A DNA stretch of 64,000 nucleotides from Armatimonadota bacterium (GTDB lineage: Bacteria; Armatimonadota; Hebobacteria; CAIYQO01). Below the pieces are notes generated by a model. The model did not search any database. It had not been told where the DNA came from and was given only the letters and a program-made list of their open reading frames with translations. The position numbers were made by a program, and so were the translations under genes. Below are positions 39,156-61,294 of this stretch, piece by piece. Each line of letters opens with the position of its first letter. Position 1 is the stretch's first letter. Where the stretch lies: contig JAKPKV010000028.1 in the NCBI GenBank assembly GCA_029553475.1, positions 186,001 through 250,000 of the forward strand, given 5' to 3'.

Positions 39156-40016
39156 TCACGCGAGACACAGCGCGAGCAGCGCCAGCGTCCCCAGGCCGTA
39201 AAAGGTATACTCGCTATCCGCCTCCGCGTCCCCGGGGGCGCCGCGAAATCCGCCATCCGGGCAGGCCAGGCCGCGCGTGAACCGCCCCACCTCCCCCAGG
39301 CGCAGCGCCGCCATGTCACCCAGCGTCGCCAGCGTCAACAGGCCGGTGAAGGTGGAGAGCAGATCACCGGCGGCGAGGGCCGCGTGCGCGCGCAGGCCGC
39401 CGTCCTCCGCCTGCATGCCGGCGAGAAAAACCGTCGCCGCCGTATCCTCCTCCCCCAGGCGCGCCCACAGCGCCAGCGCGCCCAGCGCGGCGGCGGTGGC
39501 GTTCGTCTGCCCGCATGCTTCCCCCGGCTGCCCGGCGAAGCCGCCATCGCCGCCGCGCAGCGCGCGCAGCCGGCGCACCGCCGTCTCCTGATGGGGAAAC
39601 GGCTCTCCGCGCAGCGCGCAACACAGCGCGGCGAGGAAGATCCGGTAGGCGCTATCGAGCGGGGGGAACGGGGGGAGCACGCCGGGCACGTCACGCCCCA
39701 CGTGGTATCCGCACCGCCGCAGCAGGCGCCGGCTATGCAGCGCCGCGCAGACGTGGACGAGATCGGTGGGAGCCGGGCACGCGGCCAGGTAGCGGGCGGC
39801 GCGGGGCACGGCGGGGCTGTCCGGGGCGCAGAGGGTGAGCACGCGCAGCGCGAAATCGGTATAGTAGAGGTCAGCGCCGCCCTGGCGGCCGGGGAAGCCA
39901 CCGTCGGCGCCTTGCCGGCGTTCGATGAAACGCACCTGGCGGGCGACGAACGGCCGCGGCAGCCGCGTCACCCCATCCGCCAGCAGGCGATCCAGCGTGG
40001 CGAGGTAGGCGCTCAT
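39156..40016 (-). CDS. Prenyltransferase/squalene-oxidase-repeat protein
   Basis: 286 residues forming an alpha/alpha toroid. Repeats centre on DGGFPGRQGG, DGGFAGQPGEACGQTNATAAALGALALW, DGGLRAHAALAAGD and CPDGGFRGAPGDAEADSEYTFYGLG. The pattern is like the beta subunit of protein prenyltransferases and like terpene cyclases. The Asp-x-Cys zinc ligands of protein prenyltransferases are not evident and there is no DxDD, so the activity is open. As the last gene of the five-gene isoprenoid operon, joined to the polyprenyl synthetase gene by an ATGA overlap, it likely acts on the same product. Confidence 0.75.
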   Translation of the reverse strand: MSAYLATLDRLLADGVTRLPRPFVARQVRFIERRQGADGGFPGRQGGADLYYTDFALRVLTLCAPDSPAVPRAARYLAACPAPTDLVHVCAALHSRRLLRRCGYHVGRDVPGVLPPFPPLDSAYRIFLAALCCALRGEPFPHQETAVRRLRALRGGDGGFAGQPGEACGQTNATAAALGALALWARLGEEDTAATVFLAGMQAEDGGLRAHAALAAGDLLSTFTGLLTLATLGDMAALRLGEVGRFTRGLACPDGGFRGAPGDAEADSEYTFYGLGTLALLALCLA

Positions 40017-43416: not shown

Positions 43417-44927
43417 CCCCGCGCCCTCCCGGCGTGCAGCGCGAAGCGCGCGCGCCATTGCATCGCCTGGCCCCACCCCATCATCTGGAAGAGCAGCCGT
43501 TTCCACGGCGGCACACCGACGGCCGCCTGGTTATCGCGATACAGGCGCGGAATCCAGCGGAAGTTATACGTGTAGGCGGCGCGGATGAGCTGCCAGTGCC
43601 GGCGGGTGAGCGCGCGCACGGTGAGTGGCGCGCCGCCGTCCACCGGCGCGTACAGCACCGGGAAGATGGTGATCGGTTCGCCGCGAAAGCCTTCCACCCA
43701 GCGCAGCGTCGCCTCGACGTCCTCCGGCGTTTCGCCGGGCAGGCCGAGGATGAGGCTGACCATGGGCAGGAAGCCGGCGCGGATGAGGCGGCGAAGCTGC
43801 ACGGCGCAAAAACTCCCCCACTCGTCATCCATCACCCCGCCCATCTTCGGGCCGCCGCCGTTGCGGCGCAGCAGCGCGCCGGACGCGGTTTCCACCCCCA
43901 TATTGACCCACGGCAGCTCCGCCCCGGTTTCCCCGACGAGCAGGCGCGTCACCCGCGCCAGCTCGTCCGCGCTGAACCCGGCGACGCTGCGCGCGTTGGC
44001 GTGGTCAATTTGCAGCAATCCAACGCCATGCAGGCCGCGCAGCCACTGCAGCAGCCCCAACACGCGCTCCGGCTGCACCGAGGCCCCGATGGCGCCATAG
44101 CGGAAGAAATCCTCGCTCAACACCGCGATATCGGCCATCCCCGCGCGCAGATTCGTCTGCACGTCGGCGACGATGAGCTCTTCCGGCAGGTGCCGCATGG
44201 GCACGCGCGCCAGCGTGCAGAACGCGCAGCCCCACCCGCAGCCGCGGCTGATCTCCACCACGCCCATCGTGGTGCCGTCCACGATGGGGGGAATCGCCTC
44301 CGCCGGCACGGCTTCGCCGGGGATGACCGCCGGCAGCGGATCGCGCAGGCGCAGCGCCCGGAACAGCTCCAGCGCGTTGCCTTCCGCGTAGCCGGTCACC
44401 ACGTGGTCAATCCCCAGCGCCGCGCGGCGCGCGGCGTCCCCCGCGAGCTGCCAGCTTCCCGGCCCGCCGAGGATGATCTTCGCTTTCGGCGCGGCGGCGG
44501 TGCGGCAGGCGCGCACCGTCGCCATCAGCCGCGTGAAGTGCGCGTGCGGATAGCTGATCCCGCCGGCGATGCCCGCCATCGTGGTGGAATTCATGCCGTG
44601 GCCAGTCGGCTCTCCCGCGCAGATGCCCACCGCGCAGGTGCGGGGGCCAATGGCGCGCGGCAGCTCCTCTTCGGGCACGACCGCCACCTCGTCCCGCGTG
44701 AACCCGCCTTCCCGCAACGCCGCCTCGATGCGCCGTATACCGAGCGGCGCCACGGTCGCCCGCCCATCAGTCAGCGGGGCCGGCGGCATCACCAGGCGGC
44801 CGACGAGGCCGGGCGGGGCGGCCGTGGTCAGGCTGGAAGCGAGCATGCCGTCGAAGAGCAGCGAATAGCCCGCCATCAGCGTGCGATCGGCGGTGAGCAC
44901 GATGGGGTAGCCGGGAAACGCGGTCAC
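43413..44927 (-). CDS. Radical SAM protein with B12-binding-type N-terminal domain
   Basis: 504 residues. Radical SAM cluster motif RGCGWGCAFC (Cx3Cx2C) near residue 230. The N-terminal part (about 60-200) resembles a cobalamin-binding Rossmann domain (GICAGEPTGHGMNSTTMAG, KIILGGPGSWQLAG, GIDHVVTGYAEGNALE), although the classical DxHxxG is not clear. Between a ferredoxin-like gene and the cyclase, it most likely performs a methylation or ring/side-chain modification of the polycyclic isoprenoid, comparable to the radical SAM enzymes of hopanoid clusters. The substrate is inferred. Confidence 0.85.
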   Translation of the reverse strand: MTAFPGYPIVLTADRTLMAGYSLLFDGMLASSLTTAAPPGLVGRLVMPPAPLTDGRATVAPLGIRRIEAALREGGFTRDEVAVVPEEELPRAIGPRTCAVGICAGEPTGHGMNSTTMAGIAGGISYPHAHFTRLMATVRACRTAAAPKAKIILGGPGSWQLAGDAARRAALGIDHVVTGYAEGNALELFRALRLRDPLPAVIPGEAVPAEAIPPIVDGTTMGVVEISRGCGWGCAFCTLARVPMRHLPEELIVADVQTNLRAGMADIAVLSEDFFRYGAIGASVQPERVLGLLQWLRGLHGVGLLQIDHANARSVAGFSADELARVTRLLVGETGAELPWVNMGVETASGALLRRNGGGPKMGGVMDDEWGSFCAVQLRRLIRAGFLPMVSLILGLPGETPEDVEATLRWVEGFRGEPITIFPVLYAPVDGGAPLTVRALTRRHWQLIRAAYTYNFRWIPRLYRDNQAAVGVPPWKRLLFQMMGWGQAMQWRARFALHAGRARG

Positions 44928-45685
44928 GGGCGCCTCCCCGGCAGCGCGTCCAGCGCGGCGATCAGCGCGTCCAGCTCATCCGTCTCGACCGGCGCGCCCG
45001 TCGCCCGCCCGCACTCCGGACAGTTGTCGCCCCCCACGCCGGCTTCCGTACGGCCGCAGACGGGACACGGGCGCCCGGTACGGGCGTAGAACATGCGCCG
45101 CGCGGCGGCGTCAGGACTCATCTCCCGCCCGGGGGCGCCGGCAATCGCCGGGTCCTGGCAGAGCGGAAAGATGATCGCCCCGCGCGGGCAGATACGGCTG
45201 CACGCCGGACAGCCCGCCTTGCAGGCGTCGGGATGTTCGACCGTCACCCGGCCGTCGGCGTCCAGCGCGTAGACGCCGAAGAGGCAGAATTGCAGGCAGT
45301 GGTGACAATCGCCGCAGCGGTCGCGGTCAATCACCGGATACCAGCGGGCGACGGTCTCGCCCTCCAGCGTTTCGCACGACGCGGCGGATACGGGGTGCAC
45401 CGCGCGGATCGCCGCCAGCGCTCCCGCGTCACCGGCGACCTCGCGCCGCGAGACCACGGTCGCGGTGATGCCGTGCCGGCGCAGCAGCCACGCCGCCGGA
45501 CGCGCGTGCAGGCCGGTGACGTAGACCAGCGGCGCCGGCAGCGCCGCCAGCCGCGTCCAGAGCGGGCTGTCTTCTGGCAGGTGATAGAGCTCGGGCACGC
45601 GCAGCACCGGGAAGCCGGCGCCGGTGATCGCCCGCGCCACCACATCGCTGTCCGCGCCGGCATTGTTTCGCGCGAGGATAATCAT
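44924..45685 (-). CDS. Dicluster ferredoxin-like protein with C-terminal zinc-ribbon
   Basis: 253 residues. The N-terminal half is a Rossmann-like region without cofactor motif. Then come IDRDRCGDCHHCLQFCLFGVY and CKAGCPACSRICPRGAI, two [4Fe-4S] ligand sets with irregular spacing. After residue 205, CPVCGRT...CPECGRA is a zinc-ribbon-like Cx2C pair. As first gene of the isoprenoid operon it is a plausible electron donor to the radical SAM enzyme that overlaps it by 4 nt. Start ATG 45685 behind GGAAG. Confidence 0.75.
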   Translation of the reverse strand: MIILARNNAGADSDVVARAITGAGFPVLRVPELYHLPEDSPLWTRLAALPAPLVYVTGLHARPAAWLLRRHGITATVVSRREVAGDAGALAAIRAVHPVSAASCETLEGETVARWYPVIDRDRCGDCHHCLQFCLFGVYALDADGRVTVEHPDACKAGCPACSRICPRGAIIFPLCQDPAIAGAPGREMSPDAAARRMFYARTGRPCPVCGRTEAGVGGDNCPECGRATGAPVETDELDALIAALDALPGRRP

Positions 45686-45699
45686 GGCGGTCTTCCGCG

Positions 45700-45729
45700 T
45701 ATCAAAACATCCGGCCCGGGTTTTGTCAA
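45700..45729 (-). promoter_or_regulatory. Candidate promoter of the isoprenoid operon
   Basis: Perfect TTGACA (45729-45724) but only a weak -10 (TTGATA, 18-nt spacer). It lies in the 169-nt divergent control region shared with the redox operon. Confidence 0.35.
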
Positions 45730-45764
45730 TCCCCGTACCGGCGGGCCACGCCCCCCATTACCCC

Positions 45765-45794
45765 TTCACCTCTTTCGCCGATAATGGGTATAAT
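45765..45794 (+). promoter_or_regulatory. Promoter of the envelope redox operon
   Basis: TTCACC (45765-45770), 18-nt spacer, perfect TATAAT (45789-45794). Transcription would start about 45801, leaving a leader of some 54 nt before ATG 45855. Confidence 0.6.
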
Positions 45795-45854
45795 TCCCGT
45801 ATCGGGCATCGGTTGAACGTTGTCCGCCAGCTTGTCTCGCCTTACGGTAGGGGT

Positions 45855-47297
45855 ATGCGCTATTCGCTCATCGAAATCGGGCTGCCGCTCTTCGTCGTCA
45901 TCGTCGGCGCGCTCGCCTTCGGGCGGTGGCTGGCGGACGGCCGACGGGCGCTGACGGCGACGCCCCGTGTGCCTATCGCCCAGGCGCAGGATTCCGGCCC
46001 ACGCCCGGAAGACGTAATTCCCCCGACAACCACGCCGACGCCGGTGCCCGCTACGGCGGTGACGCCTCCGACCACGCCGCCAGACGACACCACGCCCGCC
46101 ATCCCCGTCAGCGGCGCCTGGCCGCGCTTCCGCGGGGCCTACAGCGACGGCATCAGCTACGACCGCACGCCGCTGGCAACCCGCTGGACGGCGGACGGGC
46201 CGCCACGCCTGTGGACGGCCCCGCTGGGCGAGGGCTACGCCGGTCCGGCGGTGCTGAACGGCCGCGTGTACCTGCTCGATTATGACGCATCAGCGAAGCA
46301 GGACGTGCTGCGCTGCTTCGCGCTGCACGATGGCCGCGAGCTCTGGCGCTCCGGCTATGCCTCCCCCACCGGCAAGCAGCACGGGTATTCGCGCACCGTG
46401 CCGGCGGTGACGGAGCACTACGTCGTCACCCTCGGCCCGCGCTGCATCGTCTCGTGCGCCGACGCCGCCACCGGGAAACAGCGGTGGATGCACGACCTGG
46501 TGGCGGAGTACGGCACCGCCGTTCCGGAGTGGAACGCCGGGCAGTGCCCGCTGATCGAGGATGGCCGCGCCATCATCGCCCCCGGCGGGTCGGCGCTGCT
46601 GGTCGCCTTCGACTGCGCCACCGGGGAGGAAATCTGGCGCACGCCGAACCCCGACGGCTGGAAGATGACCCACTCCTCCATCCTGCCGCTCACCTGGAAG
46701 GGCCGGCGCCTGTACGTGTACTGCGCCAGCGGCGGGGTGGTGGGGGTGGACGCCGCCGACGGGCGGGTGCTGTGGAAGACGGCTGACTGGGTGGTGCGTA
46801 CCGCCAACATCCCCACCCCCGTCTCGCTGGGCGATGGCCGCCTGTTCCTCTCCGGCGGCTACGGCGCGGGGAGTAAGATGATCCGGCTGGTGGACAAGGA
46901 GGGGGATATCGCCGTCGAGGAGCTCTTTCACAAACGCGAGGCGGAATTCGGCGCCTACCAGCAGACGCCCATCTACTATAACGGCCACATCTACAGCGTC
47001 ATTCCGAACGGCCAGCTCGCCTGCATGAGTCCTGATGGTGAGATCCGCTGGAAAAGCGGCACGGCGCACCGTTATGCCTGGAACGCCTACACCCTGGCCG
47101 GCGGGATGCTCTACCTGCTGAACGACCGCGGTGAGTTGAGCCTTGTCACCGCCACGCCGAGGGGATTTTCGCTGCGCGGCAAGGCGAAAGTGCTCGACGG
47201 CACGGAGCTCTGGGGTCCCATCGCCATCGCCGGCCGCCGCCTGCTGGCGCGCGATCTGACGACGATGGTCTGCCTGGATATCGGAGCACAGCCATGA
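45855..47297 (+). CDS. Membrane-anchored PQQ-like (BamB-type) beta-propeller protein
   Basis: 480 residues. One N-terminal transmembrane helix (IGLPLFVVIVGALAFG), a Pro/Thr-rich linker (about 45-85) and then an eight-blade-type propeller beginning WPRFRGAYSDGIS, with repeated AxTGExxWRT-type turns (ATGEEIWRTPN, DAADGRVLWKT). No heme or PQQ ligand set is seen, so it is probably a binding or scaffold protein facing the periplasm. First gene of the eleven-gene redox operon. Start ATG 45855 behind a weak GGTAGGGG; it overlaps the next gene by 4 nt. Confidence 0.8.
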   Translation: MRYSLIEIGLPLFVVIVGALAFGRWLADGRRALTATPRVPIAQAQDSGPRPEDVIPPTTTPTPVPATAVTPPTTPPDDTTPAIPVSGAWPRFRGAYSDGISYDRTPLATRWTADGPPRLWTAPLGEGYAGPAVLNGRVYLLDYDASAKQDVLRCFALHDGRELWRSGYASPTGKQHGYSRTVPAVTEHYVVTLGPRCIVSCADAATGKQRWMHDLVAEYGTAVPEWNAGQCPLIEDGRAIIAPGGSALLVAFDCATGEEIWRTPNPDGWKMTHSSILPLTWKGRRLYVYCASGGVVGVDAADGRVLWKTADWVVRTANIPTPVSLGDGRLFLSGGYGAGSKMIRLVDKEGDIAVEELFHKREAEFGAYQQTPIYYNGHIYSVIPNGQLACMSPDGEIRWKSGTAHRYAWNAYTLAGGMLYLLNDRGELSLVTATPRGFSLRGKAKVLDGTELWGPIAIAGRRLLARDLTTMVCLDIGAQP

Positions 47298-48244
47298 CGC
47301 GCCGGACGGTGGATCGCTGGCTGGGCGCGGGGGTGCTGCTGGTGATCGCGGTCACCGCGATCACCGCGTGGCGGGTGCAGCAGCAGGTCCAGCGCGCGCC
47401 GGCGATGGCGGGCATCCCGGCGGCGGCGCAGGCGACCGCGTACCGCGAAGTCGAGACGATTCCCGTCACCGTACAGCAGCCGACCGCGCTGACAACCGGC
47501 TTCGGCATGGTGTATATTGCAGGGCAGCATGCCATCCAGCGGCACAGGCGCACAGGCCGGCGGATGGCAGCGGATCACGATCGAGCGGAAGCGCGGGGGG
47601 GGATCACCGCCATCACGTATGGCCACGCCGCCGGCGAGGCATACCTCGCCACCCGTGATGAAATTACCCGCTGGCAGGACGGCGTCACCCAGGAACGCTG
47701 GCCCGCGCGTCCCGGCATGGTGGTCACCGGACTGGCTGTCTATCGGGATACCCTGTGGGCGGCGGACGCGGGGAACACGCAGGTGGTCGGCTTCAGCCTC
47801 GATGGCACATGCATCGGCACCCTGGCCGGGCAAGACGAGCGGCACGGCGTCCCCGGCTTGCTGCTGCCGGGAGGACAGTTTGACATCGCGGTGAACCAGC
47901 GGGGCGAGATCTTCATCACCAATCCCGGGCGGCATCGCATCGAAGTGTATGACCGCAATGGGACGCTGCTGCGGAGCTGGGGCGTGCCGTCCGCGCAGCC
48001 GGGCGGGTTCAGCGGCTGCTGCAATCCCGTCGCGCTGGCGGTGATGCCCGACGGCTCAATCATCACCGCCGAGAAGGGGCGCGGGCGATTGCAGCGGTTC
48101 AGCGATTGCGGCGCCTTCCAGGAAGTGGTGGCCGACCTGGGCCACGGTGATGGATTCGATCTCGCGGTGGATGGCGATGATATTGTGCTGCTCGATATAC
48201 AAGCACGGCTCGTGCGGGTATATCAACGGACGGTGAGTGAATGA
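47294..48244 (+). CDS. Membrane-anchored NHL-type beta-propeller protein
   Basis: 316 residues. N-terminal helix (WLGAGVLLVIAVTAITAW), then NHL-like blades: TGLAVYRDTLWAADAGNTQVVGF, FDIAVNQRGEIFITNPGRHRIEVYDRNGTLLRSWG, ALAVMPDGSIITAEKGRGRLQRF. The PGGFSGCCNPVALAV loop between blades has an adjacent Cys pair. It probably recognises a protein or polymer in the periplasm. It is coupled by 4-nt overlaps to both neighbours in the redox operon. Function unknown. Confidence 0.75.
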   Translation: MTRRTVDRWLGAGVLLVIAVTAITAWRVQQQVQRAPAMAGIPAAAQATAYREVETIPVTVQQPTALTTGFGMVYIAGQHAIQRHRRTGRRMAADHDRAEARGGITAITYGHAAGEAYLATRDEITRWQDGVTQERWPARPGMVVTGLAVYRDTLWAADAGNTQVVGFSLDGTCIGTLAGQDERHGVPGLLLPGGQFDIAVNQRGEIFITNPGRHRIEVYDRNGTLLRSWGVPSAQPGGFSGCCNPVALAVMPDGSIITAEKGRGRLQRFSDCGAFQEVVADLGHGDGFDLAVDGDDIVLLDIQARLVRVYQRTVSE

Positions 48245-48468
48245 CCGACCAGCCGCATAGCCGCCGCGCCTTCCTGCGCTCCCTGGCCCGCTTCGCCGCG
48301 GCCGGGGCGCTGGCGCTCGGCGCGGGGGCGCTGATGGCGAAGCGGACGGGGGAGACGTGCGTGAGCGACGGCATCTGCACGCGTTGTGACACGCTGCCCG
48401 CGTGCAAGCTGCCGCAGGCGCTTTCGGCCAGAGACGCGTTGAACCGGGGGAATCATGGCGGACGATAA
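48241..48468 (+). CDS. Tiny Tat-exported four-cysteine protein
   Basis: 75 residues. A twin-arginine signal (SRRAFLRSLARFAAAGALALGAG) is followed by only about 40 mature residues holding Cys40, 46, 49 and 55 in C-x5-C-x2-C-x5-C (CVSDGICTRCDTLPAC). Four Cys behind a Tat signal suggest one Fe-S cluster loaded before export, or a cluster carrier. It stands directly before the NapG-like ferredoxin gene, which it overlaps by 14 nt. I cannot name a family. Confidence 0.75.
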   Translation: MTDQPHSRRAFLRSLARFAAAGALALGAGALMAKRTGETCVSDGICTRCDTLPACKLPQALSARDALNRGNHGGR

Positions 48469-49027
48469 CGCTACAACCCGGCGCGCGTTCCTCACCCACG
48501 CGCTGCGCGGCCTGGGCCTGCTGGCCGTCGGCGGCGCGGCGGCGGCCCTCGCGCAGGCGGGCGCGGCGGGCACCGTCTGGCAGATTGATCCCGACGCGTG
48601 CATCCAGTGCGGCCAGTGCGCCACCCACTGCGTGCTGCGCCCTTCGGCGGTGAAGTGCGTGCATACCCACGCGCTCTGCGGCTACTGCAAGCTCTGCTTC
48701 GGCTATTTTGAGAGCGAGTCCATCCCCGACGAGTTGACCGGCACCGGCGCGGAATTCCAGCGCTGCCCCACCGACGCCATCCGGCGCCGCTTCGTGGAAG
48801 ACCCCTTCTACGAATACGTCATTGACGAGTCGCGCTGCATCGGCTGCGGGACATGCGTGAAGGGGTGCGCCGCCTACGGCAACGGCTCGCTCTTTTTGCA
48901 GATTCGCCACGACCGCTGCGTGCACTGCAACGCGTGCGCCATCGCCGCCGCCTGCCCGGCGCGGGCGATTCGCCGCGTGCCGGCCGACCGCCCCTACCTG
49001 TTGAAACAGACGAGGGCGCCCGCATGA
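48455..49027 (+). CDS. Tat-exported polyferredoxin, NapG-like
   Basis: 190 residues. Tat signal (TRRAFLTHALRGLGLLAVGG) then about four [4Fe-4S] sites: CIQCGQCATHC, CVHTHALCGYCKLC, CIGCGTCVKGC, CVHCNACAIAAACP. The arrangement is close to NapG and related periplasmic ferredoxins that take electrons from a NapH-type membrane partner, which is exactly the next gene (ATGATG overlap). It would shuttle electrons on the outer face of the inner membrane. Confidence 0.85.
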   Translation: MADDNATTRRAFLTHALRGLGLLAVGGAAAALAQAGAAGTVWQIDPDACIQCGQCATHCVLRPSAVKCVHTHALCGYCKLCFGYFESESIPDELTGTGAEFQRCPTDAIRRRFVEDPFYEYVIDESRCIGCGTCVKGCAAYGNGSLFLQIRHDRCVHCNACAIAAACPARAIRRVPADRPYLLKQTRAPA

Positions 49028-50316
49028 TGCGACGCCGCGCCGCGCAATTCGCTCTCCTCTTCCTCGCGCTGGCGGCCGGTGCGCAGGTCTTCCAGCCGCC
49101 CACCGAGTTCCAGTCCGGCTACACGCTGCCGGCCACGCCGGTGCCGCCGCCGCGCGCCGACTGGCTCGGTTGGCTGGACGTCGGCCTGCTCGCGCTGGCG
49201 CTGATCCTCGCCGCCTGGCTGGCGCTGCGCAAACGGTCGCGGCCGGGCGTGCTGCTGCTCGCGGTCGGCTCGCTGCTCTACTTCGGTTTCTACCGCCACG
49301 GCTGCATCTGCCCGGTGGGCTCGGTGCAGAACGTCGCGCTGGCGATGGCCGACCCGGGCTACGCGCTGCCGGTCACCGTCGGCCTCTTCTTCCTGCTGCC
49401 GCTGCTCTGCGCGCTCGTCGTCGGGCGCGTCTTCTGCGCGGCGGTCTGCCCACTGGGGGTGGCGCAGGAGGTGGTGCTGCTGCGCCCCATCACCGTGCCG
49501 AGCTGGCTGGCGCACGCGCTCGGCGTGCTGCCCTTCGTCTATCTGGGAGCTGCCGTCCTCTTTGCCGCGACCGGCAGCGCCTTTCTCATCTGCCAATACG
49601 ATCCCTTCGTGCTCTTCTTCCGCTTCAGCGGCAGCGCCGCGATGCTCGTCATCGGCATCGGCATGCTGCTGGTCGCGACCGTCATCGGCCGGCCCTACTG
49701 CCGCTTCCTCTGTCCCTACGGCGCGCTGCTGCGGCTGCTGGCGCCGCTCACCCGCTGGCCGGTGCGCATCACGCCCCGTACCTGCGTCAACTGCACGCTC
49801 TGCCACGACGCCTGCCCGCACGGCGCCATCCATCCCCCCACGCCGGAGGAGCCGCGGCCGCGCGGCGAGGGCAAAGCCCGCCTCGTGGGCCTGCTCCTGC
49901 TGCTGCCCGTCCTCGTCGCCGCCGGCGCGTTCCTCGCTCGCCAGACCAGCCCGGCCTTAGCGCGCCTGCACCCCACCGTGCGCACCGCCGAGCAGGTAAG
50001 CCTGCACGGCGCCGGCCTGCTGGCGGGTGAATCGAATGCCGTCATCGCTTTCGAGCACGCCGCCGGCGAAACGGGTATACTGTACGCGCACGCGCGCGCC
50101 ATCCAGCGGCGCTTTGACCGCGCTTCATGGTATTGGGGAGGGTGGATCGGGTTGGTCATCGGGATAAAGCTGCTCACCCTGGCGCTGCGGCGGCGGCGGA
50201 CGGAATACACGATTGATCAGGGCGCCTGCCTGGCCTGCGCGCGCTGCTACCCCTCCTGCCCCGTGCCCGCCGACGGCCCGCCGGAGGTCGCGGCGCCGGA
50301 AGGGAGCGCGCGATGA
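49024..50316 (+). CDS. Membrane polyferredoxin, NapH/NosR-like
   Basis: 430 residues. Signal or anchor, then QPPTEFQSGYTLPATPVPPPR, and about six helices. The transmembrane Cys motifs are HGCICPVGS, FCAAVCPLGVAQE and CRFLCPYGALLRL (CxxxCP class), followed by a [4Fe-4S] site CVNCTLCHDACP. After one more helix, a second Cys set CLACARCYPSCP ends the chain. The family exchanges electrons between quinol or cytoplasmic donors and periplasmic ferredoxins. The NosR-type N-terminal FMN domain is absent. It is coupled to the NapG-like gene before and the propeller gene after. Confidence 0.85.
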   Translation: MMRRRAAQFALLFLALAAGAQVFQPPTEFQSGYTLPATPVPPPRADWLGWLDVGLLALALILAAWLALRKRSRPGVLLLAVGSLLYFGFYRHGCICPVGSVQNVALAMADPGYALPVTVGLFFLLPLLCALVVGRVFCAAVCPLGVAQEVVLLRPITVPSWLAHALGVLPFVYLGAAVLFAATGSAFLICQYDPFVLFFRFSGSAAMLVIGIGMLLVATVIGRPYCRFLCPYGALLRLLAPLTRWPVRITPRTCVNCTLCHDACPHGAIHPPTPEEPRPRGEGKARLVGLLLLLPVLVAAGAFLARQTSPALARLHPTVRTAEQVSLHGAGLLAGESNAVIAFEHAAGETGILYAHARAIQRRFDRASWYWGGWIGLVIGIKLLTLALRRRRTEYTIDQGACLACARCYPSCPVPADGPPEVAAPEGSAR

Positions 50317-52189
50317 CGCCGTCTCGCCTCGTGCAAGCCTGGCAGCGCGCCCTCACCCGCATCGCGGTGGCGGCGGCGCTGCTCGCGCTGCTGCTGGGCG
50401 GCATGCTGATCGCCCACGCCGTGCGCCTGCGCGCGGCGAATCCCTGGACCGCGCCGGCCCTCGTCGCGTTGAAAGCGCGGATCACGCGGGACGGCGCGCG
50501 CGAGCTGGCGGAGACTTACCGCCGGCTGGACGCCGCCTACAACGCCCGCTACTTCGCCGCGCAGGCGCAGATCGCCCGCGGCCTTCCGCTCCTCGGCGGG
50601 GCGCTGGCCGTCTGCCTGCTCGCCGCGCTGCTCGCCCGGCTGCCGCGCCGGGGGGCGATTGACCCGCGCGACCTGCCCGCGCCACCCCCCATGAAACTGG
50701 CGATGGCCGGCCGCTACGCCGTGGGGGTGATGGGCCTCCTCCTCGCCGGCACGCTCATCGGCCTCGCCACGATTCCGGCGCCGATGATCCCCCTCAGCGC
50801 CGGCGCCGGCCCGCGCGCGACCGTGCCCGACGAGCCTACCCTCGCCAGCGCGCCGCCGGGTGAGCCGGACACGCTGCCGGGGCTTGCTCCGCCACCGCCG
50901 CTGCCCGCGCCGCCGGTGAATCCCGCGCCGCTCTCGCCCGGCCCGGTGAAGCCCTCACCCGCGGCCGCGCAAGCGGGCGCCGGTCTCACGGACGTGCTCG
51001 CCCATATCCCGGACGCGTATAAGCCGCACTGGCCTTTCTTCCGCGGCCCGGCGGGCGTCGGCCTCGCGGCGGTGGCGGACGCCCCGCTGGGGTGGGACGT
51101 CACGAGCGGCAAGGGCGTGCGCTGGCACGCCACCATCCCGCTGCCGGGCAACAGCTCGCCCATCGTCTGGGGCGACCGCGTTTTCGTCTCCGGCGCGGAC
51201 GCCGAGCAGCGGGAGATTTACTGCTTTGACGCCGATACCGGCAAGCTGCGCTGGACGGGCCATACGCGGGGCATCACCGGCTCGGAAGCGGTGGAGGTGC
51301 ATCAAGCGGATACCGGCTACGCCGCGCCGACGATGGCCACCGACGGCGCGCGCGTCTTCGCCATCTTCGCCAACGGCGACATCATCGGCTACGATATCGC
51401 CGGCACGCGCCGCTGGGGGCGCAGCCTCGGTCCCATTGACAGCATGTACGGGTACGCGTCGTCGCTGACGGTCTACAAGGAGCTGGTCATCGCGCAGATT
51501 GACCAGGCCGGCGCCGACGACGGCATCTCGGAGCTGCTGGCGCTCAACGCCGCCACCGGCGAGACGGTCTGGCGGGTGAAGAGCCGCCCGGTGCCCGCCT
51601 CGTGGAGTTCGCCCATCATCATCCCAACGCACACGCGCGACGAGCTCATCACCTGCGGCAATCCGTGGGTCATCGCCTACGACCCCGCCACCGGCGCGGA
51701 GCTCTGGCGCGCGGCGGTGCTGGAAGGCGATGTCGCGCCCACGCCGGCCTACGGCGGCGGGCTGCTCATCCTCTGCAAGCCCTACTCCGCGATCATCGCG
51801 CTGCATCCCGGCGGCACCGGCGACGTGACGAAGACGGCGGTGGCGTGGATCGCCGAAGACGGCGCGCCCGACACCACCAGCCCCGCCGCGACCGACGAGC
51901 TGCTCTTCATCCCCAACAACTCCTCGCTCTACTGTCACGACGTGAAGACCGGCACGAAGCTGTGGGAGCACGAGCTGGAGGCGAACGTCTACGCCTCGCC
52001 CGTCATCGCCGCGGGCCGCGTCTACGTGCTCGATGTGCAGGGGGTGATGCATATCGTCTCCGCCGCGCGCACGCTCAGGCCGCTGGGGAAAATCGTCATG
52101 GGCGGGGGTGGGATGGCGACGCCGGCCTTCGTCGGCGGCGAGCTGTACCTGCGCCTGGACTCCGACCTCTACCGCATCGGAGGTGGCGC

Positions 52190-52193
<4 letters not shown>
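50313..52193 (+). CDS. Multi-helix membrane protein with periplasmic PQQ-like propeller
   Basis: 626 residues. Three N-terminal helices (about 17-37, 90-110, 135-158) with a loop ITRDGARELAETYRRLDAAYNARYF, then a long Pro-rich linker (about 170-220), then a propeller (WPFFRGPAGVGLA, ATGETVWRVKS, ATGAELWRAAV, KTGTKLWEHE). It is related to the first propeller of the operon but with a larger membrane part. No heme motif. Overlaps of 4 nt link it to the polyferredoxin gene and to the NuoE-NuoF gene. Confidence 0.8.
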
Positions 52194-54568
<2,375 letters not shown>

Positions 54569-54613
54569 CGAAAGAAAAAATGGGGGCACGCAACCGCGCG
54601 CGTTGGTAAGTAT

Positions 54614-56101
54614 ATGCCGACCATCACCATTGACAACCAGACGATTACCGTCCCCGCCGGCGCTACGCTGTTGGCAGCGGCGGCTGAGCTCGGCATCCGC
54701 ATCCCGACGCTGTGCCACCTGGAGGGGAAGAGGCCCTGCACCTCCTGCATGGTGTGCGTGGTGCGGGTGCGGGGCGGGGCGCGGCTGCTGCCGGCGTGCG
54801 CGACTGTGGCGACTGACGGCATGGTGGTGGAGAGCGAGACGGAAGAGATGCACATGGCGCGGCGGACGGCGCTGGAGCTGCTGCTGAGCGATCACCGCGG
54901 CGATTGCGAAGGGCCGTGCCGGCTGGCCTGCCCCGCGCACCTGGATATCCCGACGATGCTGCGGCAGATCGCCGCCGGGGCGTTGCGCGCGGCCATCGCC
55001 ACCGTGAAGGCGCACATGCCGCTGCCAGCGACGCTGGGGCGCATCTGCCCGGCGCTCTGCGAGCGGGGATGCCGGCGCGGGCAGCATGACGCGCCGGTCT
55101 CCATCTGCAAGCTGACGCGGTACGTCGCCGACGCGGACCTGGCCGCGGGCGATCCCTACCGACCGCCCTGCGCGCCGCCCAGCGGGAAGCGGGTGGCCAT
55201 CATCGGCAGTGGCCCCGCCGGCCTCTCCGCCGCCTATTACCTGCTGACCTTCGGGCACGCCGTCACCCTGCACGATGCCCATGACACGCCCGGCGGCCGG
55301 CTGCGCGCCGACGTGGACCCGGCGAAGCTGCCCGCCGCCGTGCTGGACGCCGAGATTGCTCTCATCCACGCACTGGGCGCGGAGTTCCGGCTGGGTACGC
55401 GGATTGATGACCCCGCCGCGCTGCGCAGCGCGTATGATGCCGTGCTGCTGGCAACCGGTGAGACCGGGACGGCGGCGTATCCCCAGGAGCGCGGCATCTT
55501 CGCCTGCCGGGCGCCGCGCCCGCGCCCCGCGGTGCGCGCGGTGGGGGATGGCCGGGCGGCGGCGCTGGCGCTGCACGCCTGGCTGGGGGGGCCGTCCCTC
55601 GCGGAGCCGGCGCGGTTATTCTCCACCCATCTGGGGCATATCACCCCTGACGGGATGGCGCTAATGCTGCGGCACGCCAGCGCGGCGGCGCGCATCGAAG
55701 CGGCCGGTGCGTTCAGCGATGCCGAGGCGGTGGCGGAGGCCGCCCGCTGCCTGCATTGCGACTGCCGGAAAAAGGATGCCTGCCGTTTGCGCGACCGGGC
55801 CATGGCGCTGGACGCCCGCGTACACGCTTTTCGGGGCGAGAGGCGGGAGTTTGCCCAGCAGGCGACGCCGGAAGGGCTGCTCTACGAATCGGGCAAGTGC
55901 ATCGCCTGCGGCCTGTGCGTGCAGATCGCCGAGGGCGCGCGGGAGGAACTGGGGCTGGCCTTCGTCGGCCGCGGTTTCACCGTGCGCGTGGCCGTGCCGT
56001 TCACCGACGAGCTGGCCGCCGGCCTGCGCCGGGTGGCCGGGGCATGCGTGGCGGCGTGCCCCACCGGGGCGTTCTGCTGGACAGGATCAACGGCCCCGTG
56101 A
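54614..56101 (+). CDS. 2Fe-2S/FAD oxidoreductase, shortened GltD-like
   Basis: 495 residues. N-terminal [2Fe-2S] ferredoxin like the NuoG start (PTLCHLEGKRPCTSCMVCVV...AC), then a Cys set CEGPCRLACP and CPALCERGC as in GltD, then the FAD site AIIGSGPAGLSAAYYL near residue 195. The normal second Rossmann domain that binds NAD(P)H is apparently missing: VLLATGETG is followed within about 30 residues by VRAVGDGRAA. A C-terminal Cys-rich part (CLHCDCRKKDAC, CIACGLC, ACPTGAF) closes it. It probably receives electrons from the NuoEF-like protein 45 nt upstream rather than directly from NAD(P)H. Confidence 0.85.
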   Translation: MPTITIDNQTITVPAGATLLAAAAELGIRIPTLCHLEGKRPCTSCMVCVVRVRGGARLLPACATVATDGMVVESETEEMHMARRTALELLLSDHRGDCEGPCRLACPAHLDIPTMLRQIAAGALRAAIATVKAHMPLPATLGRICPALCERGCRRGQHDAPVSICKLTRYVADADLAAGDPYRPPCAPPSGKRVAIIGSGPAGLSAAYYLLTFGHAVTLHDAHDTPGGRLRADVDPAKLPAAVLDAEIALIHALGAEFRLGTRIDDPAALRSAYDAVLLATGETGTAAYPQERGIFACRAPRPRPAVRAVGDGRAAALALHAWLGGPSLAEPARLFSTHLGHITPDGMALMLRHASAAARIEAAGAFSDAEAVAEAARCLHCDCRKKDACRLRDRAMALDARVHAFRGERREFAQQATPEGLLYESGKCIACGLCVQIAEGAREELGLAFVGRGFTVRVAVPFTDELAAGLRRVAGACVAACPTGAFCWTGSTAP

Positions 56102-56167
56102 TGTGCCGCGCGTGCAGGATGCCCGTGATGGCGGGAGTGCCGGGGGCGGATGACGGGAGGAATGCTG

Positions 56168-56851
56168 ATGGCGGTGCTCACCCTCGATGGCGTGGTGAAG
56201 GACTTCGCGGGCCCGCGCGGCGTGCTGCGGGTGCTGGACGGCGTGTCGCTGACGCTCTCGTCCGGCGAGACCGCCGCCATCGTCGGGCCGTCCGGGTCCG
56301 GCAAGAGTACGCTGCTCAACTGCATCGGCGCGCTGGACCGGCCGACGCTCGGCACCGTTCGCCTGGATGATGGTGAGGTGACGACGCTCGGCGGCGCGGC
56401 GCTGGCCGCCTACCGCGCGACGCACGTCGGCTTCATCTTTCAGGACCACCACCTGCTGCCGCAGCTCACCGCATGGGAAAACGTGCTGCTGCCCACGCTG
56501 GCCGCCGGGACGCGGGAGGGCGCGGCAGCGCGGGCGCGGCAGTTGCTCGAACGCATGGGTATCGCCGAGCGGGCGGACGCCTTTCCGGCGCAGATGTCCG
56601 GCGGCGAGCGCCAGCGGGCGGCGGTGGCGCGGGCGCTCGTCAACGGCGCCGACCTGCTGCTCTGCGACGAGCCCACCGGCAACCTGGACCGCGCCGCCGG
56701 CGAGGCGGTCGTGGACCTGCTGCTGCCGCTCGCCGTCGAGGGCGTCATCATCATCATGGTCACCCACAACCGGGAACTCGCCGCCCGCTTCGGCCGCGTG
56801 CTGGAGCTGCGCGCCGGCAGGCTTTCGCCCCTCCAGGAGGACCCGACGTGA
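56168..56851 (+). CDS. ABC transporter ATPase, LolD/MacB type
   Basis: 227 residues. Walker A GPSGSGKST, Q-loop FIFQDHHLLPQ, signature MSGGERQR, Walker B LLLCDEPTGNLD and switch VTHNREL place it in the LolD/FtsE/MacB group. ATG 56168 lies seven bases behind GGGAGGA; ATG 56162 is too close to that site. Its stop overlaps the GTG of the FtsX-like permease. It powers that permease in extracting or moving an envelope substrate, possibly a lipoprotein. Confidence 0.92.
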   Translation: MAVLTLDGVVKDFAGPRGVLRVLDGVSLTLSSGETAAIVGPSGSGKSTLLNCIGALDRPTLGTVRLDDGEVTTLGGAALAAYRATHVGFIFQDHHLLPQLTAWENVLLPTLAAGTREGAAARARQLLERMGIAERADAFPAQMSGGERQRAAVARALVNGADLLLCDEPTGNLDRAAGEAVVDLLLPLAVEGVIIIMVTHNRELAARFGRVLELRAGRLSPLQEDPT

Positions 56852-59800
56852 CCCTTTTTCGCCTCATCACCCGCGGCCTGCGCCACTACCGCCGCACCGG
56901 CCTCGCCATCGTCTTCGGCGTGGCGACTGCCGCCGCCGCCCTCACCGGCTCGCTGCTCGTCGGGCATTCGGTGAGCGGAAGCTTGCGGGAGACGGCGCTG
57001 GCGCGGTTGGGGAATGTTTCGTATGCCGTGATGGCGCCGCGGGAGTTTCGCGCGCAGCTGGCCGGTGATGTGAAGGCGGGACGGCAATGCTCTGGATTCT
57101 CAGCGCTGTTTCTCGCGGCTGGCGCCGCCACCAATACCGAAACCCATGCCGGCGTTCCGCACGTCAACATCATTGGCGTAGACGGCAGCTTCTGGGAAAA
57201 TAGTGCCACGGAGAAGACGCTCGAAGGCCGCGAGGCCCTCATCAACACCGCGCTCGCCCGCGACCTCGGCCTCGAAAAGGGCGATTCCTGCCTCATCAAC
57301 CTTGTGCGCGGCGGCGCGATGAGCAGCGGCAACCTCTTTGCCCAGCGCAGCCTCGATGCCACCCAGCGCACGCTGCGCGTCACTATCGCCGAGGTGCTCC
57401 CCGACCGCGGCCCTGGGGGCTTGACCCTGGCCGCCGGCAGCGCGGTCCCGCGCAATATCCTGCTGGCGCGCGCGTGGCTGCTTGAGATGCTGCACAAGGG
57501 GGATGTCGCCAATACGCTGCTGGCCCACAGCCCATCATTGCGTGTCCCTGATCAGGAAAAGCTTCAAGCGCGTTTAGCCGCGGCCTGCACGCTGCGGGAC
57601 TACGGCCTCTCCCTCGTCCCCGCTCCACAGCGCAACTGCCTGCTGCTGCGGAGCGATGGGATGGTACTGCCGCATGTCGTGGTGAAGGCGGGGCGTGATG
57701 CCGCGGCAGCGCACGCGGCGACGGCGCGGCGCACGTCCGTCTATCTGGCGGAACGCATGTATCGGCCGTCTTCACGCTTCAACGGCTCCCGGCTTTACCA
57801 GCCACAGCCGGAGTCGGCAATCGGGACATCCATCTCCTACGTGCTGCTGGCCGCCGTCGAACGGCCGCCCGGCGGCGATGTCCCCGCCAAAGACCCGGTG
57901 TTGCTGAACGCCTGGGCGGCTGACGACCTCGGCCTGAGGCGGTTCAGCGCGGACACCAGTCTCATCCTGGAATATCTCGTTCCGTCACTGGATGGGCGGT
58001 ACACGACGCAACCGCTCCGACTGCGGTACGCCGGCACGGTGCCCATCACCCCCGCCGACGCCGCCCTCGTGCCGCCCATTGACGGCGTCTCCGATGCTGA
58101 CCGCATTGATGCCTGGCAGGCGCCGTTTCCGGTGGATCTGCAGCGCGTGACCGACCGGGATGAGGCGTATTGGGAGCAGTATCAGGCGACGCCGAAGGCG
58201 TACGTGGACCTGGAGACTATCCGGACGATGTGGGCCAGCGGGCCGCGGGGCGAGCATGCCGACTGGGTCACGGCGCTGATGGTGACGCCGCCGGCGGGGC
58301 AGACGCTGGAGGGGTTCGCGAAGGAGTATGACGCGGCGCTGCTGAAGCGGCTGGATCCCGCCGATTTCGGCCTGGTGTTCCGCCCCGTGCGCGCACAGGC
58401 GCTGGCGGCGGCGACGAGCGCCACCGATTTCGGGCAGTTGTTCATCGCCATGAGCCTCTTCCTTATCGCCGCCGCCGCCGGGCTGGCGGGGATGCTGATG
58501 CGGCTGATGGCGGAGGGACGCGCGGCGCAGGCGGGGGTGATGCTGGCGCAGGGGTTCACGCCCGCGCAGGTGATGCGCGCGCTGTGGCTGGAGGGGGCGA
58601 TCCTTTCCGCCGCGGGCACGCTGCTCGGGGTGCCGCTGGGCATCCTCTACGCGTGGGCGCTCATCCGCGGCCTCACCTCCTGGTGGCAGGGCGCGGTGGG
58701 CGAGGCGGCGCTGTGGCTGCACCTCGGCGCCGGACCGCTTCTGCTCGGCATCGTCGCCGGCCTGCTCGTCGGGCTGGGCGCCGTCGCCTGGGGCGCGCGC
58801 GGCCTCATCGGCCGCGCGGTGCCGGCGCTCCTCGGCGGCTGGCAATCGCTGGCCATGCTGCCGGGGCGGCGCGCGCCGATCGCGCTCACCAGCGCCAGCG
58901 CGCTCGCGCTCATCGCCCTCATCCTCGTCGGGCTGGGCATCGGCCAGCTCCTCACCCCCGCCGTCGCCTTCTTCACCGGCGGCGCGGCGCTGCTCGCCGG
59001 CGGGCTGTGCGCCGGCGCGGCGCTGCTCGCGCGCGGCGCCGCCCTCCCCATCCTGCCGGTGTCGCTGCCGCGGCTGGCGCTGCGCAACGCCGCCGCCAAC
59101 CGCGGACGCAGCCTGCTGGTGGTGGGCCTGCTCGCCAGCGCCACCTTCGTGGTCGTCACCGTGGCGGCCAACGCGCGCGACTTCACCCGCCTCGATACCG
59201 GCGACCGCGCCGCCGGCACCGGCGGCTTCGCGCTGCGGGCCATCGCTACCGCGCCCCTGCCGTACGACCTCAGCACCCCCGCCGGCCGCGCCAACCTCGG
59301 CTTCAGCGCGGCGGATGAAGCGTCGTGCACCGGCGTCACCGTCTACCCCTTCCTGATGAGTCCCGGCGATGACATCAGTTGCCGCAATCTCAACCGCCCG
59401 GCCGCTCCGCGCGTCATCGGCGTGCCGCCGGCGATGGTGCGGCGCGGCGGCTTCACCCTGCGGGGCGCGGAGTGGCCCGCGCTGTGGAAAACAGGCGATC
59501 CCGTCCCCGCCTTCGGCGACGCGGAGAGCGTGGTGTGGTCGCTGCACAGCGGGCTCGCGCGGACGCTCCCCCTGCCGCTGCCGGACGGCAAAACGGCGGC
59601 GCTCCGCGTTGACGGCCTGGTCGCCGCCAGCATCTTCGGCAGCGAGCTGCTGGTGTCCGAGGAGAATTTCACAACGCTCTTCCCCGGCATCACCATGCCG
59701 CGCTATTTCCTCATCGAGACGCCGCCGGGCCGCGAACGCGCCGTCGCGGAGGCGCTGCGGCGCAACCTGGGGGAGCTGGGGCTGGAGGTGCGCGACACCC

Positions 59801-60216
59801 GCGAGGTACTGAACGGCTACCTCCGCGTGCAGAATACCTATCTCTCCATGTTCCTCGCCATCGGCGGGCTGGGTATGCTGTTGGGGACGGTAGGCCTGCT
59901 CCTCGCGCTGCTGCGCAACGCGCAGGAACGCCGCCGGGAGTTCGCGCTGATGCTGGCGACCGGCTTCCGCACGGAGGACCTGTCGCGGCTGCTGGTGCTG
60001 GAAAATGGCGGGCTGCTCATCGCCGGGCTGCTGCTCGGCACGGGCGCGGCGCTGATCGCCGTGGCTCCGCGGTTCATCGCCGCCGATGCCCGCATCCACT
60101 GGCCGGGGATCGTGAGCCTGCTGCTCGCCCTCCTCGCCGTGGGACTGTTGAGCACGCTGGCGGCAGCGCGGGCAGCGGTGCGCGGGCGCCTGCTGGAGGC
60201 GCTGCGCGGAGAATAA
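56848..60216 (+). CDS. FtsX/LolE-like ABC permease
   Basis: 1122 residues, GTG start with AGGAGG upstream. One N-terminal helix, a very large periplasmic domain (about 40-520), FtsX-type helices (about 525-690), further helices, a second periplasmic part (about 780-990) and three C-terminal helices with the FtsX signature around LRNAQERRREFALMLATGFR. About twice the size of LolC/E, so it is a fused or double FtsX protein. Together with the ATPase it forms a mechanotransmission-type transporter, which may mature or position the exported proteins of this operon; that is inference. Confidence 0.85.
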   Translation: MTLFRLITRGLRHYRRTGLAIVFGVATAAAALTGSLLVGHSVSGSLRETALARLGNVSYAVMAPREFRAQLAGDVKAGRQCSGFSALFLAAGAATNTETHAGVPHVNIIGVDGSFWENSATEKTLEGREALINTALARDLGLEKGDSCLINLVRGGAMSSGNLFAQRSLDATQRTLRVTIAEVLPDRGPGGLTLAAGSAVPRNILLARAWLLEMLHKGDVANTLLAHSPSLRVPDQEKLQARLAAACTLRDYGLSLVPAPQRNCLLLRSDGMVLPHVVVKAGRDAAAAHAATARRTSVYLAERMYRPSSRFNGSRLYQPQPESAIGTSISYVLLAAVERPPGGDVPAKDPVLLNAWAADDLGLRRFSADTSLILEYLVPSLDGRYTTQPLRLRYAGTVPITPADAALVPPIDGVSDADRIDAWQAPFPVDLQRVTDRDEAYWEQYQATPKAYVDLETIRTMWASGPRGEHADWVTALMVTPPAGQTLEGFAKEYDAALLKRLDPADFGLVFRPVRAQALAAATSATDFGQLFIAMSLFLIAAAAGLAGMLMRLMAEGRAAQAGVMLAQGFTPAQVMRALWLEGAILSAAGTLLGVPLGILYAWALIRGLTSWWQGAVGEAALWLHLGAGPLLLGIVAGLLVGLGAVAWGARGLIGRAVPALLGGWQSLAMLPGRRAPIALTSASALALIALILVGLGIGQLLTPAVAFFTGGAALLAGGLCAGAALLARGAALPILPVSLPRLALRNAAANRGRSLLVVGLLASATFVVVTVAANARDFTRLDTGDRAAGTGGFALRAIATAPLPYDLSTPAGRANLGFSAADEASCTGVTVYPFLMSPGDDISCRNLNRPAAPRVIGVPPAMVRRGGFTLRGAEWPALWKTGDPVPAFGDAESVVWSLHSGLARTLPLPLPDGKTAALRVDGLVAASIFGSELLVSEENFTTLFPGITMPRYFLIETPPGRERAVAEALRRNLGELGLEVRDTREVLNGYLRVQNTYLSMFLAIGGLGMLLGTVGLLLALLRNAQERRREFALMLATGFRTEDLSRLLVLENGGLLIAGLLLGTGAALIAVAPRFIAADARIHWPGIVSLLLALLAVGLLSTLAAARAAVRGRLLEALRGE

Positions 60217-60217
60217 G

Positions 60218-61294
60218 ATGCGTTACCTGTTGTTGCTTCCGCTATGCTGTATGGCCGTCGCGCAGAGCGCCTGGCCGAGTTTTCGCGGCAATCCGCAGAT
60301 GACCGGCACCGCCGCGTCGCTGCCCGCGGTGCCCGCGCTGCTGTGGACCTACGAGGCGAAAGCCCCCATCTCCTCCACCGCCGCCATCGTGGACGGCGTG
60401 GTCTACGTCGGCACCGAAGAGGGCGCGCTGCTGGCGCTGAGCCTCAGCGACGGCACACTCCAGTGGCGGTATGACGCCGGCAATACCCTCAACGCCTCGC
60501 CCTGCGTGGCGAACGGCCTCGTGTATCTCGGCGACGCGGTGGGCACCTTCCACGCGGTGAACGCCGCCACCGGCAAGAAGGTCTGGACCTACGCCACCGC
60601 GGGGCAGATCATCTCCTCGGCGGTGGCGGTGAACGGCCGCGTGCTGGTCGGCTCGTATGACCGCAACCTCTACTGCTTCGACGGAACCAGCGGCGCGGTG
60701 CAATGGGCCTTCACCGCCGACGCCCAGGTGCACTGCGCGCCCTGCATCGCCGAGGGGATGGCGATCATTGCCGGATGCGACGGGCTGGTGCGCGGCATTG
60801 ACCTCGCCACCGGCAAGCAGCGTGTCGCCGTCAAGATCGGCGGCAACATCGGCGCCACTCCCGCCTACAGCGGCGGCGCCGTCTTCCTGGGCACCATGAA
60901 CGGCGAGTACCTGGCCATTCGCGTCAAGGACATGAAGGTGCTCTGGCGCGTCAAGGACGACGGTGACCCTATTGTCAGCTCCGCCGCGGTGGGCGCCAAC
61001 GCCGTGGTCTTCTCCACGAAAAACAACGCCATCTTCTGCGTGGAGCGCGGCACCGGCAGGCACCGCTGGTCGGTGAGCACCCGCAAGCGCGTCGAATCCT
61101 CGCCGGTCATCGTCGGCGGGCGCGCCTACGTCGGCACCGGCGACGGCATCCTCTACGGCCTCGATCTCGCGGCCGGCAGGAAGGCCTGGCAGTTCCGCGC
61201 CGGCGCCGAACTCACCGCCTCCCCCGCCATCGCCGGCAACCGGCTGGTCATCGGCGCGCAGGATGGGGCGGTGTATTGCTTTGGGCAGCGGTGA
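60218..61294 (+). CDS. Secreted PQQ-like (BamB-type) beta-propeller protein
   Basis: 358 residues. Signal peptide (MRYLLLLPLCCMAVAQS), then eight-blade-type repeats: WPSFRGNPQMTG, DGVVYVGTEEGALLALSLSDGTLQWRYD, NAATGKKVWTY, YDRNLYCFDGTSGAVQWAF and so on to the end. The Cys pair in the signal (LLLPLCC) could be a lipobox, making it a lipoprotein. That would fit the Lol-type transporter encoded just before it (2 nt after its stop). Last gene of the redox operon. Confidence 0.85.
   Translation: MRYLLLLPLCCMAVAQSAWPSFRGNPQMTGTAASLPAVPALLWTYEAKAPISSTAAIVDGVVYVGTEEGALLALSLSDGTLQWRYDAGNTLNASPCVANGLVYLGDAVGTFHAVNAATGKKVWTYATAGQIISSAVAVNGRVLVGSYDRNLYCFDGTSGAVQWAFTADAQVHCAPCIAEGMAIIAGCDGLVRGIDLATGKQRVAVKIGGNIGATPAYSGGAVFLGTMNGEYLAIRVKDMKVLWRVKDDGDPIVSSAAVGANAVVFSTKNNAIFCVERGTGRHRWSVSTRKRVESSPVIVGGRAYVGTGDGILYGLDLAAGRKAWQFRAGAELTASPAIAGNRLVIGAQDGAVYCFGQR

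Follow-up and report, generated by a model that had tools for sequence, protein, structure and literature searches.

The protein encoded at 54614-56101 of the window (here meaning the whole 64,000-nucleotide stretch of DNA that was analysed) raises a simple question: if an oxidoreductase built like the NADPH-linked subunit StnC has no domain for NAD(P)H, with what would it exchange electrons instead? The first-pass annotation, made from the sequence, had described a GltD-like protein with a NuoG-like 2Fe-2S front end and an FAD Rossmann motif, from which the second nucleotide-binding domain seemed to have been deleted. The chain divides as follows:

54614..56101, + strand: truncated BfuA (StnC/NfnA-like) subunit, 495 aa (Pfam, homology to solved structures, model)
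54614..54892, + strand: NuoG-type 2Fe-2S domain, residues 1-93 (C34, C45, C48, C62; Pfam Fer2_4; ligands kept in 16/16 truncated proteins)
54893..55183, + strand: His94/Cys98 half of the NuoG-type His-Cys3 site and GltD Fe-S domain, residues 94-190 (Fer4_20)
55184..55462, + strand: FAD Rossmann domain, first half, residues 191-283 (GSGPAG 198-203, GG 227-228)
55463..55495, + strand: excision scar, residues 284-294, at the site of the NAD(P)H Rossmann domain of StnC/GltD (alignment; low-confidence model segment)
55496..55591, + strand: FAD domain, second half, residues 295-326, with the clade-specific Arg308
55745..56083, + strand: NuoG-like Fe-S domain, residues 378-490 (C379, C382, C384, C390; one 4Fe-4S site, C429/C432/C435/C482)

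We confirm the clean loss of the NAD(P)H Rossmann domain from this NuoG/GltD-type protein. Pfam matches comprise Fer2_4 (residues 3-76), Fer4_20 (98-176), and Pyr_redox_2 (193-282), the last covering only the first third of its model; the annotated FAD motif is the GSGPAG within that part. Between VLLATGETG (residues 277-285) and VRAVGDGRAA (307-316) lie 21 residues, where the same two points in solved StnC/NfnA proteins stand about 175-190 residues apart (288 to 464 in 9bov, 287 to 475 in 8oh5). Within the truncated family, the window's genus has lost a further ~15-20 residues, among them the FAD-domain return strand, which reads FAAGSAV in relatives.

An AlphaFold2 model built from a 27-sequence alignment (mean pLDDT 85.7; weakest internal segments at residues 284-290, within the excision scar, and 453-463) gave its best structural matches, by VIA-align, to 9bov_A (Z 35.2, 477 residues, 3.3 Å), 8oh5_C (Z 34.1), and 9n5u_A (Z 33.2), each of which is the A subunit of an NfnABC or the C subunit of StnABC; matches of the predicted structure to NfnABC/StnC span 475-479 model residues. 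NfnL (5jfc_L) aligns with model residues 97-326 over its residues 46-472 (230 residues, rmsd 1.9 Å, Z 26.3), an alignment that, like that to GltD, takes in the Fe-S and FAD domains of the predicted structure and not the NADPH domain, and NuoG chains align to both ends of the model with Z of about 19. Structure prediction and alignment, the check that the first-pass annotation had itself named, thus came out in its favour, the second Rossmann fold being absent where model residues 97-326 are laid on NfnL. An intact NAD(P)H fold hidden elsewhere in the chain was also considered and rejected, as neither Pfam nor the structural alignments gave a second Rossmann match. The chain thus has the architecture of StnC/NfnA, from which two parts are missing, the NADPH domain and the FdhF-like domain at the C-terminus.

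The 2Fe-2S front end is present as annotated, yet it belongs to the usual StnC architecture and is no novelty. Like Sporomusa ovata StnC (8oh5_C) and the A subunits of NfnABC (9bov_A, 9n5u_A), the window protein joins a NuoG 2Fe-2S domain to a GltD Fe-S/FAD insert, keeps the NuoG-like order of 4Fe-4S sites, and has a BfuB/BfuC core as partner; unlike them, it lacks the NADPH Rossmann domain, the FdhF-like C-terminal domain, and the Arg of NADPH turnover, and it has one C-terminal 4Fe-4S site rather than two (the second is also missing in 9n5u). Also close in plan are the 660-aa 2Fe-2S GltD proteins of the PRK12814 / NF009454 type (for example at loci L047, L048, L055, and L068), which share its N- and C-terminal domains, have no FdhF-like part, and stand alongside BfuB/BfuC; they retain the NADPH domain, however, and the window protein scores 379 bits against a cut-off of 916.

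A pseudogene or an assembly artefact would account for the loss of one domain from an otherwise standard enzyme, but the same deletion is found in 16 aligned homologs from two phyla that form one clade, with open frames and invariant ligands; we discarded this reading on those grounds and give it practically no weight. Sequencing error was likewise ruled out: the reading frame is open and free of stops, a genome of the same genus encodes a protein at 79% identity, and the short form appears as a single continuous match in 43 of the 291 genomes searched in the phylum. Truncated homologs also occur on named Planctomycetota and Bacteroidota contigs, and judged by such named relatives the phylum of the window is probably Planctomycetota. 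Across 296 genomes from the phylum of the Sunxiuqinia seed, the short form was found in the seed genome only, and many others carried full-length forms of ~660 aa. A tree of 16 truncated and 19 full-length proteins, calculated from columns outside the deleted domain, split the two groups with 100/100 support and one change on the tree; as read from these sequences, the deletion is ancestral and a single event.

Residue comparison of the same 16 truncated and 19 full-length homologs indicates what was kept, lost, and gained. All truncated proteins retain the four 2Fe-2S cysteines, His94/Cys98/Cys384/Cys390, Cys102/106/145/149/153/379/382 (the first five being the invariant cysteines of the GltD Fe-S domain), and Cys429/432/435; Cys482 is present in 15, and the remaining row stops at a contig end before that position. 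Losses fall elsewhere. The equivalent of StnC R239, the Arg in the NfnB-type N5 region, is found in 19/19 full-length proteins and 1/16 truncated ones (Lys in the window), and it is this residue, lost from the truncated proteins, that StnC needs for NADPH-linked activity (PMC10482914). The FAD-binding Asp of the GGD motif is retained by a single truncated protein, and the Cys at position 475, present in 18/19 full-length proteins, is Ala in 15/16 truncated ones, consistent with the loss of one C-terminal 4Fe-4S cluster. Among the gains, Arg308, which sits in the C-terminal helix of the FAD domain, is found in 16/16 truncated against 2/19 full-length proteins, and P113, M115 (where StnC has Tyr117), and R117 are invariant, clade-specific, and close to the FAD-proximal cluster; there are other gained invariants besides. 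Judged by these residues, the wire is intact and its output end re-specialised, which is not the pattern of decay.

The GxGxxG, the following acid, and the GG of the FAD site are retained in 16/16 truncated proteins at 41-79% identity to the window protein, and together with the newly invariant Arg308 they speak against the reading in which the FAD half-domain is a flavinless remnant or docking surface and electrons leave the GltD-type cluster pair directly to a partner. In favour of that reading are the loss of the FAD-binding Asp and of the N5-region Arg in 15 of 16 proteins each, the missing part of the return strand in the window's genus, and the precedent of StnC, whose branch clusters lie off the electron path and are needed for assembly only (PMC10482914). 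We regard it as a real possibility, albeit the lesser one, and consider it reasonably likely that truncated BfuA still binds FAD. Flavin binding is less certain in the window's own genus because the return strand is trimmed further there; moreover, at residue 168, where StnC/NfnB use a Lys to ligate the FAD-proximal cluster, 15/16 truncated homologs have Lys or Glu and the window protein has Thr, and on these two sequence features FAD may be absent there. Another nucleotide or small molecule, such as F420 or a quinone, might instead have taken over from NADPH at the exposed face of the FAD, and P113, M115, R117, and R308 could be read in that light; the lost domain, however, has not been replaced by any extra domain, and the linked genes encode electron-transfer proteins and no cofactor-specific dehydrogenase, which makes this proposal improbable.

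The gene lies within a conserved cluster (45624-61294), whose other members are:

45624..47297, + strand: BamB/PQQ_2-type beta-propeller, opening the conserved cluster (homologs in relatives)
47294..48244, + strand: membrane-anchored NHL beta-propeller with invariant GCCNP
48455..49027, + strand: NapG-like polyferredoxin with a twin-arginine (RRxF) export signal and 17 invariant Cys
49018..50316, + strand: NapH/NosR-like membrane Fe-S protein, probable electron-transfer partner (co-occurrence)
50313..52193, + strand: membrane-anchored BamB/PQQ_2-type beta-propeller
52190..54568, + strand: BfuC-BfuB fusion with NuoE-like 2Fe-2S domain, thioredoxin-like region, NuoF FMN/NADH domain, and two C-terminal 4Fe-4S sites
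56150..56851, + strand: LolD/MacB-type ABC ATPase
56848..60216, + strand: FtsX-like permease, 10 predicted TM segments
60218..61294, + strand: BamB/PQQ_2-type beta-propeller

The NuoEF-type neighbour of the earlier description is the BfuC-BfuB fusion. Among solved structures it matches 9bov_B, 9n5u_B, and 8oh5_B best (NfnB/StnB; E 1e-196 to 1e-203); BfuC, the NuoE-like 2Fe-2S domain, is fused to the N-terminus of BfuB (E 7e-51, Pfam), which itself has the NuoF FMN domain, the NADH_4Fe-4S domain, and a C-terminal 4Fe-4S pair (B3, B4). In the sequence alignment, an H-x4-C-x4-C following the NuoF 4Fe-4S site (the B2 or zinc site) lines up with the same three structures, and GSCC...GCVGMC in the thioredoxin-like part of BfuB lines up with the region of the B5 2Fe-2S cluster of StnB/NfnB, an alignment that leaves ligation itself undecided. 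Like the BfuABC/HydABC enzymes in the main text of PMC9304861, the locus pairs a Bfu core with a BfuA carrying 2Fe-2S and 4Fe-4S ferredoxin-type domains and, on the sequence features examined, window BfuA and BfuCB belong to the Bfu family; unlike those enzymes, its BfuA has no catalytic third-substrate domain. The GltD domain is inserted in the NuoG N-terminal domain as in Stn and Nfn-type Bfu proteins, but the NADPH Rossmann domain and the R239 equivalent are both absent, so the complex should not be called a transhydrogenase. Similarity to NfnB/NfnL and GltD extends to the GltD-type Fe-S and FAD folds (about 30-34% identity), whereas the NADPH domain common to both, the bifurcating FAD with its N5-region Arg that characterises NfnB/NfnL, and an adjacent NfnA/NfnS or GltB partner are lacking, no GltB being recognised among the neighbouring genes. 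Further BfuB/NuoG/GltD-type genes occur in the window genome (G000:C79:1598-3427 and G000:C57:159703-161435), which thus has more than one Bfu-like system; elsewhere in the phylum, BfuB-like matches fall inside open frames of ~1000-1280 aa (for example G004:C163, G032:C40, and G276:C130), some of which overlap GltD-type matches as BfuB-GltD fusions.

These assignments bear on the suggestion that Fe-S clusters reduce the FAD of the truncated subunit and that this FAD is itself the flavin at which electrons branch (bifurcate). Every Fe-S ligand needed to reduce such an FAD is present. However, the Arg implicated in formation of the NfnB anionic semiquinone is gone from nearly all truncated proteins, a complete bifurcating BfuCB core already adjoins, and in StnABC the corresponding StnC FAD does not bifurcate, StnAB being the bifurcating module, at its FMN/Fe-S core (PMC10482914). 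Likewise, the main text of PMC9304861 assigns bifurcation to the BfuBC core, and to BfuA only the delivery of electrons from a third substrate. A branching role for this FAD is accordingly very improbable, and that part of the first-pass interpretation is not supported. Its other part, reduction through Fe-S clusters, is plausible, since the full ligand set between BfuCB and the FAD domain would let electrons reach any bound FAD by that route, the presence of FAD itself being presumed.

What, then, takes the place of NADPH? The most probable partner is the NapH-like protein, which has 15 invariant Cys and 4Fe-4S segments at residues 251-272 and 390-420 and matches the NapH model weakly (37.9 bits against a cut-off of 213). 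The module resembles NapGH of nitrate reduction (systems treated in PMC6195509) in combining a putatively Tat-exported polyferredoxin, its RRxF and 17 Cys conserved in homologs, with a membrane Fe-S protein putatively of the NapH type. Unlike NapH, this membrane protein has an extra TM/periplasmic segment and a C-terminal 4Fe-4S motif and, unlike NapGH systems of nitrate reduction, the cluster contains no Nap reductase. By hydropathy, both C-terminal 4Fe-4S motifs of the NapH-like protein fall on the same side of the membrane, most likely the cytoplasmic one, with a positively charged flank. A cytochrome partner was discarded: the sole CxxCH in the cluster ORFs is a CTLCH inside an Fe-S motif of the NapH-like protein, and the cluster thus has no multihaem cytochrome. 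Two of the three BamB-like propellers are membrane-anchored, as is the NHL propeller through its N-terminus; the vicinal Cys pair in the GCCNP of the latter is kept in 9/9 homologs from two phyla and is a candidate periplasmic redox site, and its model gave generic NHL/propeller matches only, with no catalytic lead. Upstream of the cluster, at 39156-45685 (-) and 36822-38282 (+), inspection by eye picked out prenyl/terpene cyclase-like repeat proteins and polyprenyl synthase-like, radical SAM-like, and ferredoxin-like ORFs, as well as a NuoN-like gene ending at 38282.

Inheritance ties the membrane module to the truncated form. Among the 291 genomes of the phylum, truncated BfuA and the NapH-like protein occur together in 40, BfuA alone in 3, NapH alone in 4, and neither in 244 (Fisher p 6e-41, shared ancestry ignored). 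Where the two share a contig, they lie 5.5-8.5 kb apart in 24 of 25 pairs and 450 kb apart in one, and the NapH-like protein was found in 7/7 genomes of named truncated loci, in some on another contig. It was absent from every examined locus of full-length homologs, and NapGH-like and beta-propeller genes linked to BfuA set these loci apart from those of StnC/NfnA. The two genes usually belong to a single conserved operon, whose gene order is common to Planctomycetota and Prolixibacteraceae. In four genomes in which the cluster is split (G038, G057, G256, and G259), BfuCB stays with the NapH-like gene and BfuA lies elsewhere, and in three of the loci (G038, G057, and L044) the neighbours of BfuA are ABC/FtsX/propeller genes. 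This arrangement hints at a pair of sub-modules, and the direct partner of BfuA could therefore be another protein. Co-inheritance of the Fe-S module of membrane and periplasm suggests that the enzyme would now exchange electrons with the membrane and not with NADPH.

We consider it probable that the window protein is the BfuA of a bifurcating or confurcating complex of the HydABC/StnABC type, descended from an NADPH-linked Stn/NfnABC ancestor, in which a NapH-like partner replaces NADPH. As judged from conserved cofactor sites, BfuCB would handle NAD(H) and ferredoxin, NADH at the FMN of BfuB and ferredoxin at the C-terminal clusters. Mid-potential electrons would pass through the 2Fe-2S and 4Fe-4S clusters of BfuA to the GltD-type cluster pair and on to the remodelled FAD domain, perhaps to FAD, at whose end a protein partner, most likely the NapH-like protein, would give or take electrons in NADPH's stead. 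That protein could hand them on either to the membrane or, in the periplasm, to the exported NapG-like polyferredoxin. NapGH is a quinol dehydrogenase in nitrate respiration, which makes quinone a possible end point. The favoured direction would be confurcating, from NADH and reduced ferredoxin to the membrane or periplasm; we infer this direction, as we do the physical contact between BfuA and the NapH-like protein and the occupancy of the FAD site. A simpler arrangement, a plain conduit from NADH or ferredoxin to the membrane with bifurcation abandoned, would agree with a membrane module standing in place of the third-substrate site, with which tight coupling would be unnecessary for quinone reduction. 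BfuB, however, retains both the 4Fe-4S pair on the ferredoxin side and the H/C/C motif at the C-terminus, features whose absence marks non-bifurcating NuoF homologs in the main text of PMC9304861, and we think a plain conduit unlikely.

More tentatively, and a little short of an even chance, the truncated proteins may represent a Bfu subfamily whose NADPH site has become a docking site for a NapGH-like conduit, through which NADH and ferredoxin would be confurcated outward or the reverse reaction would make reduced ferredoxin. In the outward direction, low-potential electrons would reach proteins of the membrane or periplasm, a possible receiver being the GCCNP propeller; in reverse, ferredoxin would be reduced by periplasmic electrons. 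The main text of PMC9304861, in which 17 of 57 Bfu clades have no assignable function and the third substrate is unknown for many, does not list a NapGH-like module among the third-substrate partners that it describes. None of the papers searched described a Bfu enzyme linked to NapGH or a GltD-like subunit lacking the NADPH domain, and GltD and NADPH go unmentioned in the main text of a paper on Hydrogenedentota Bfu enzymes (PMC11406978).

A single loss of the third-substrate domain, with every Fe-S ligand kept and a membrane Fe-S module gained, would offer a testable example of how a soluble transhydrogenase might become a membrane-linked one. The proposal predicts that Planctomycetota and some Prolixibacteraceae move electrons over the cytoplasmic membrane by a bifurcation-linked route.
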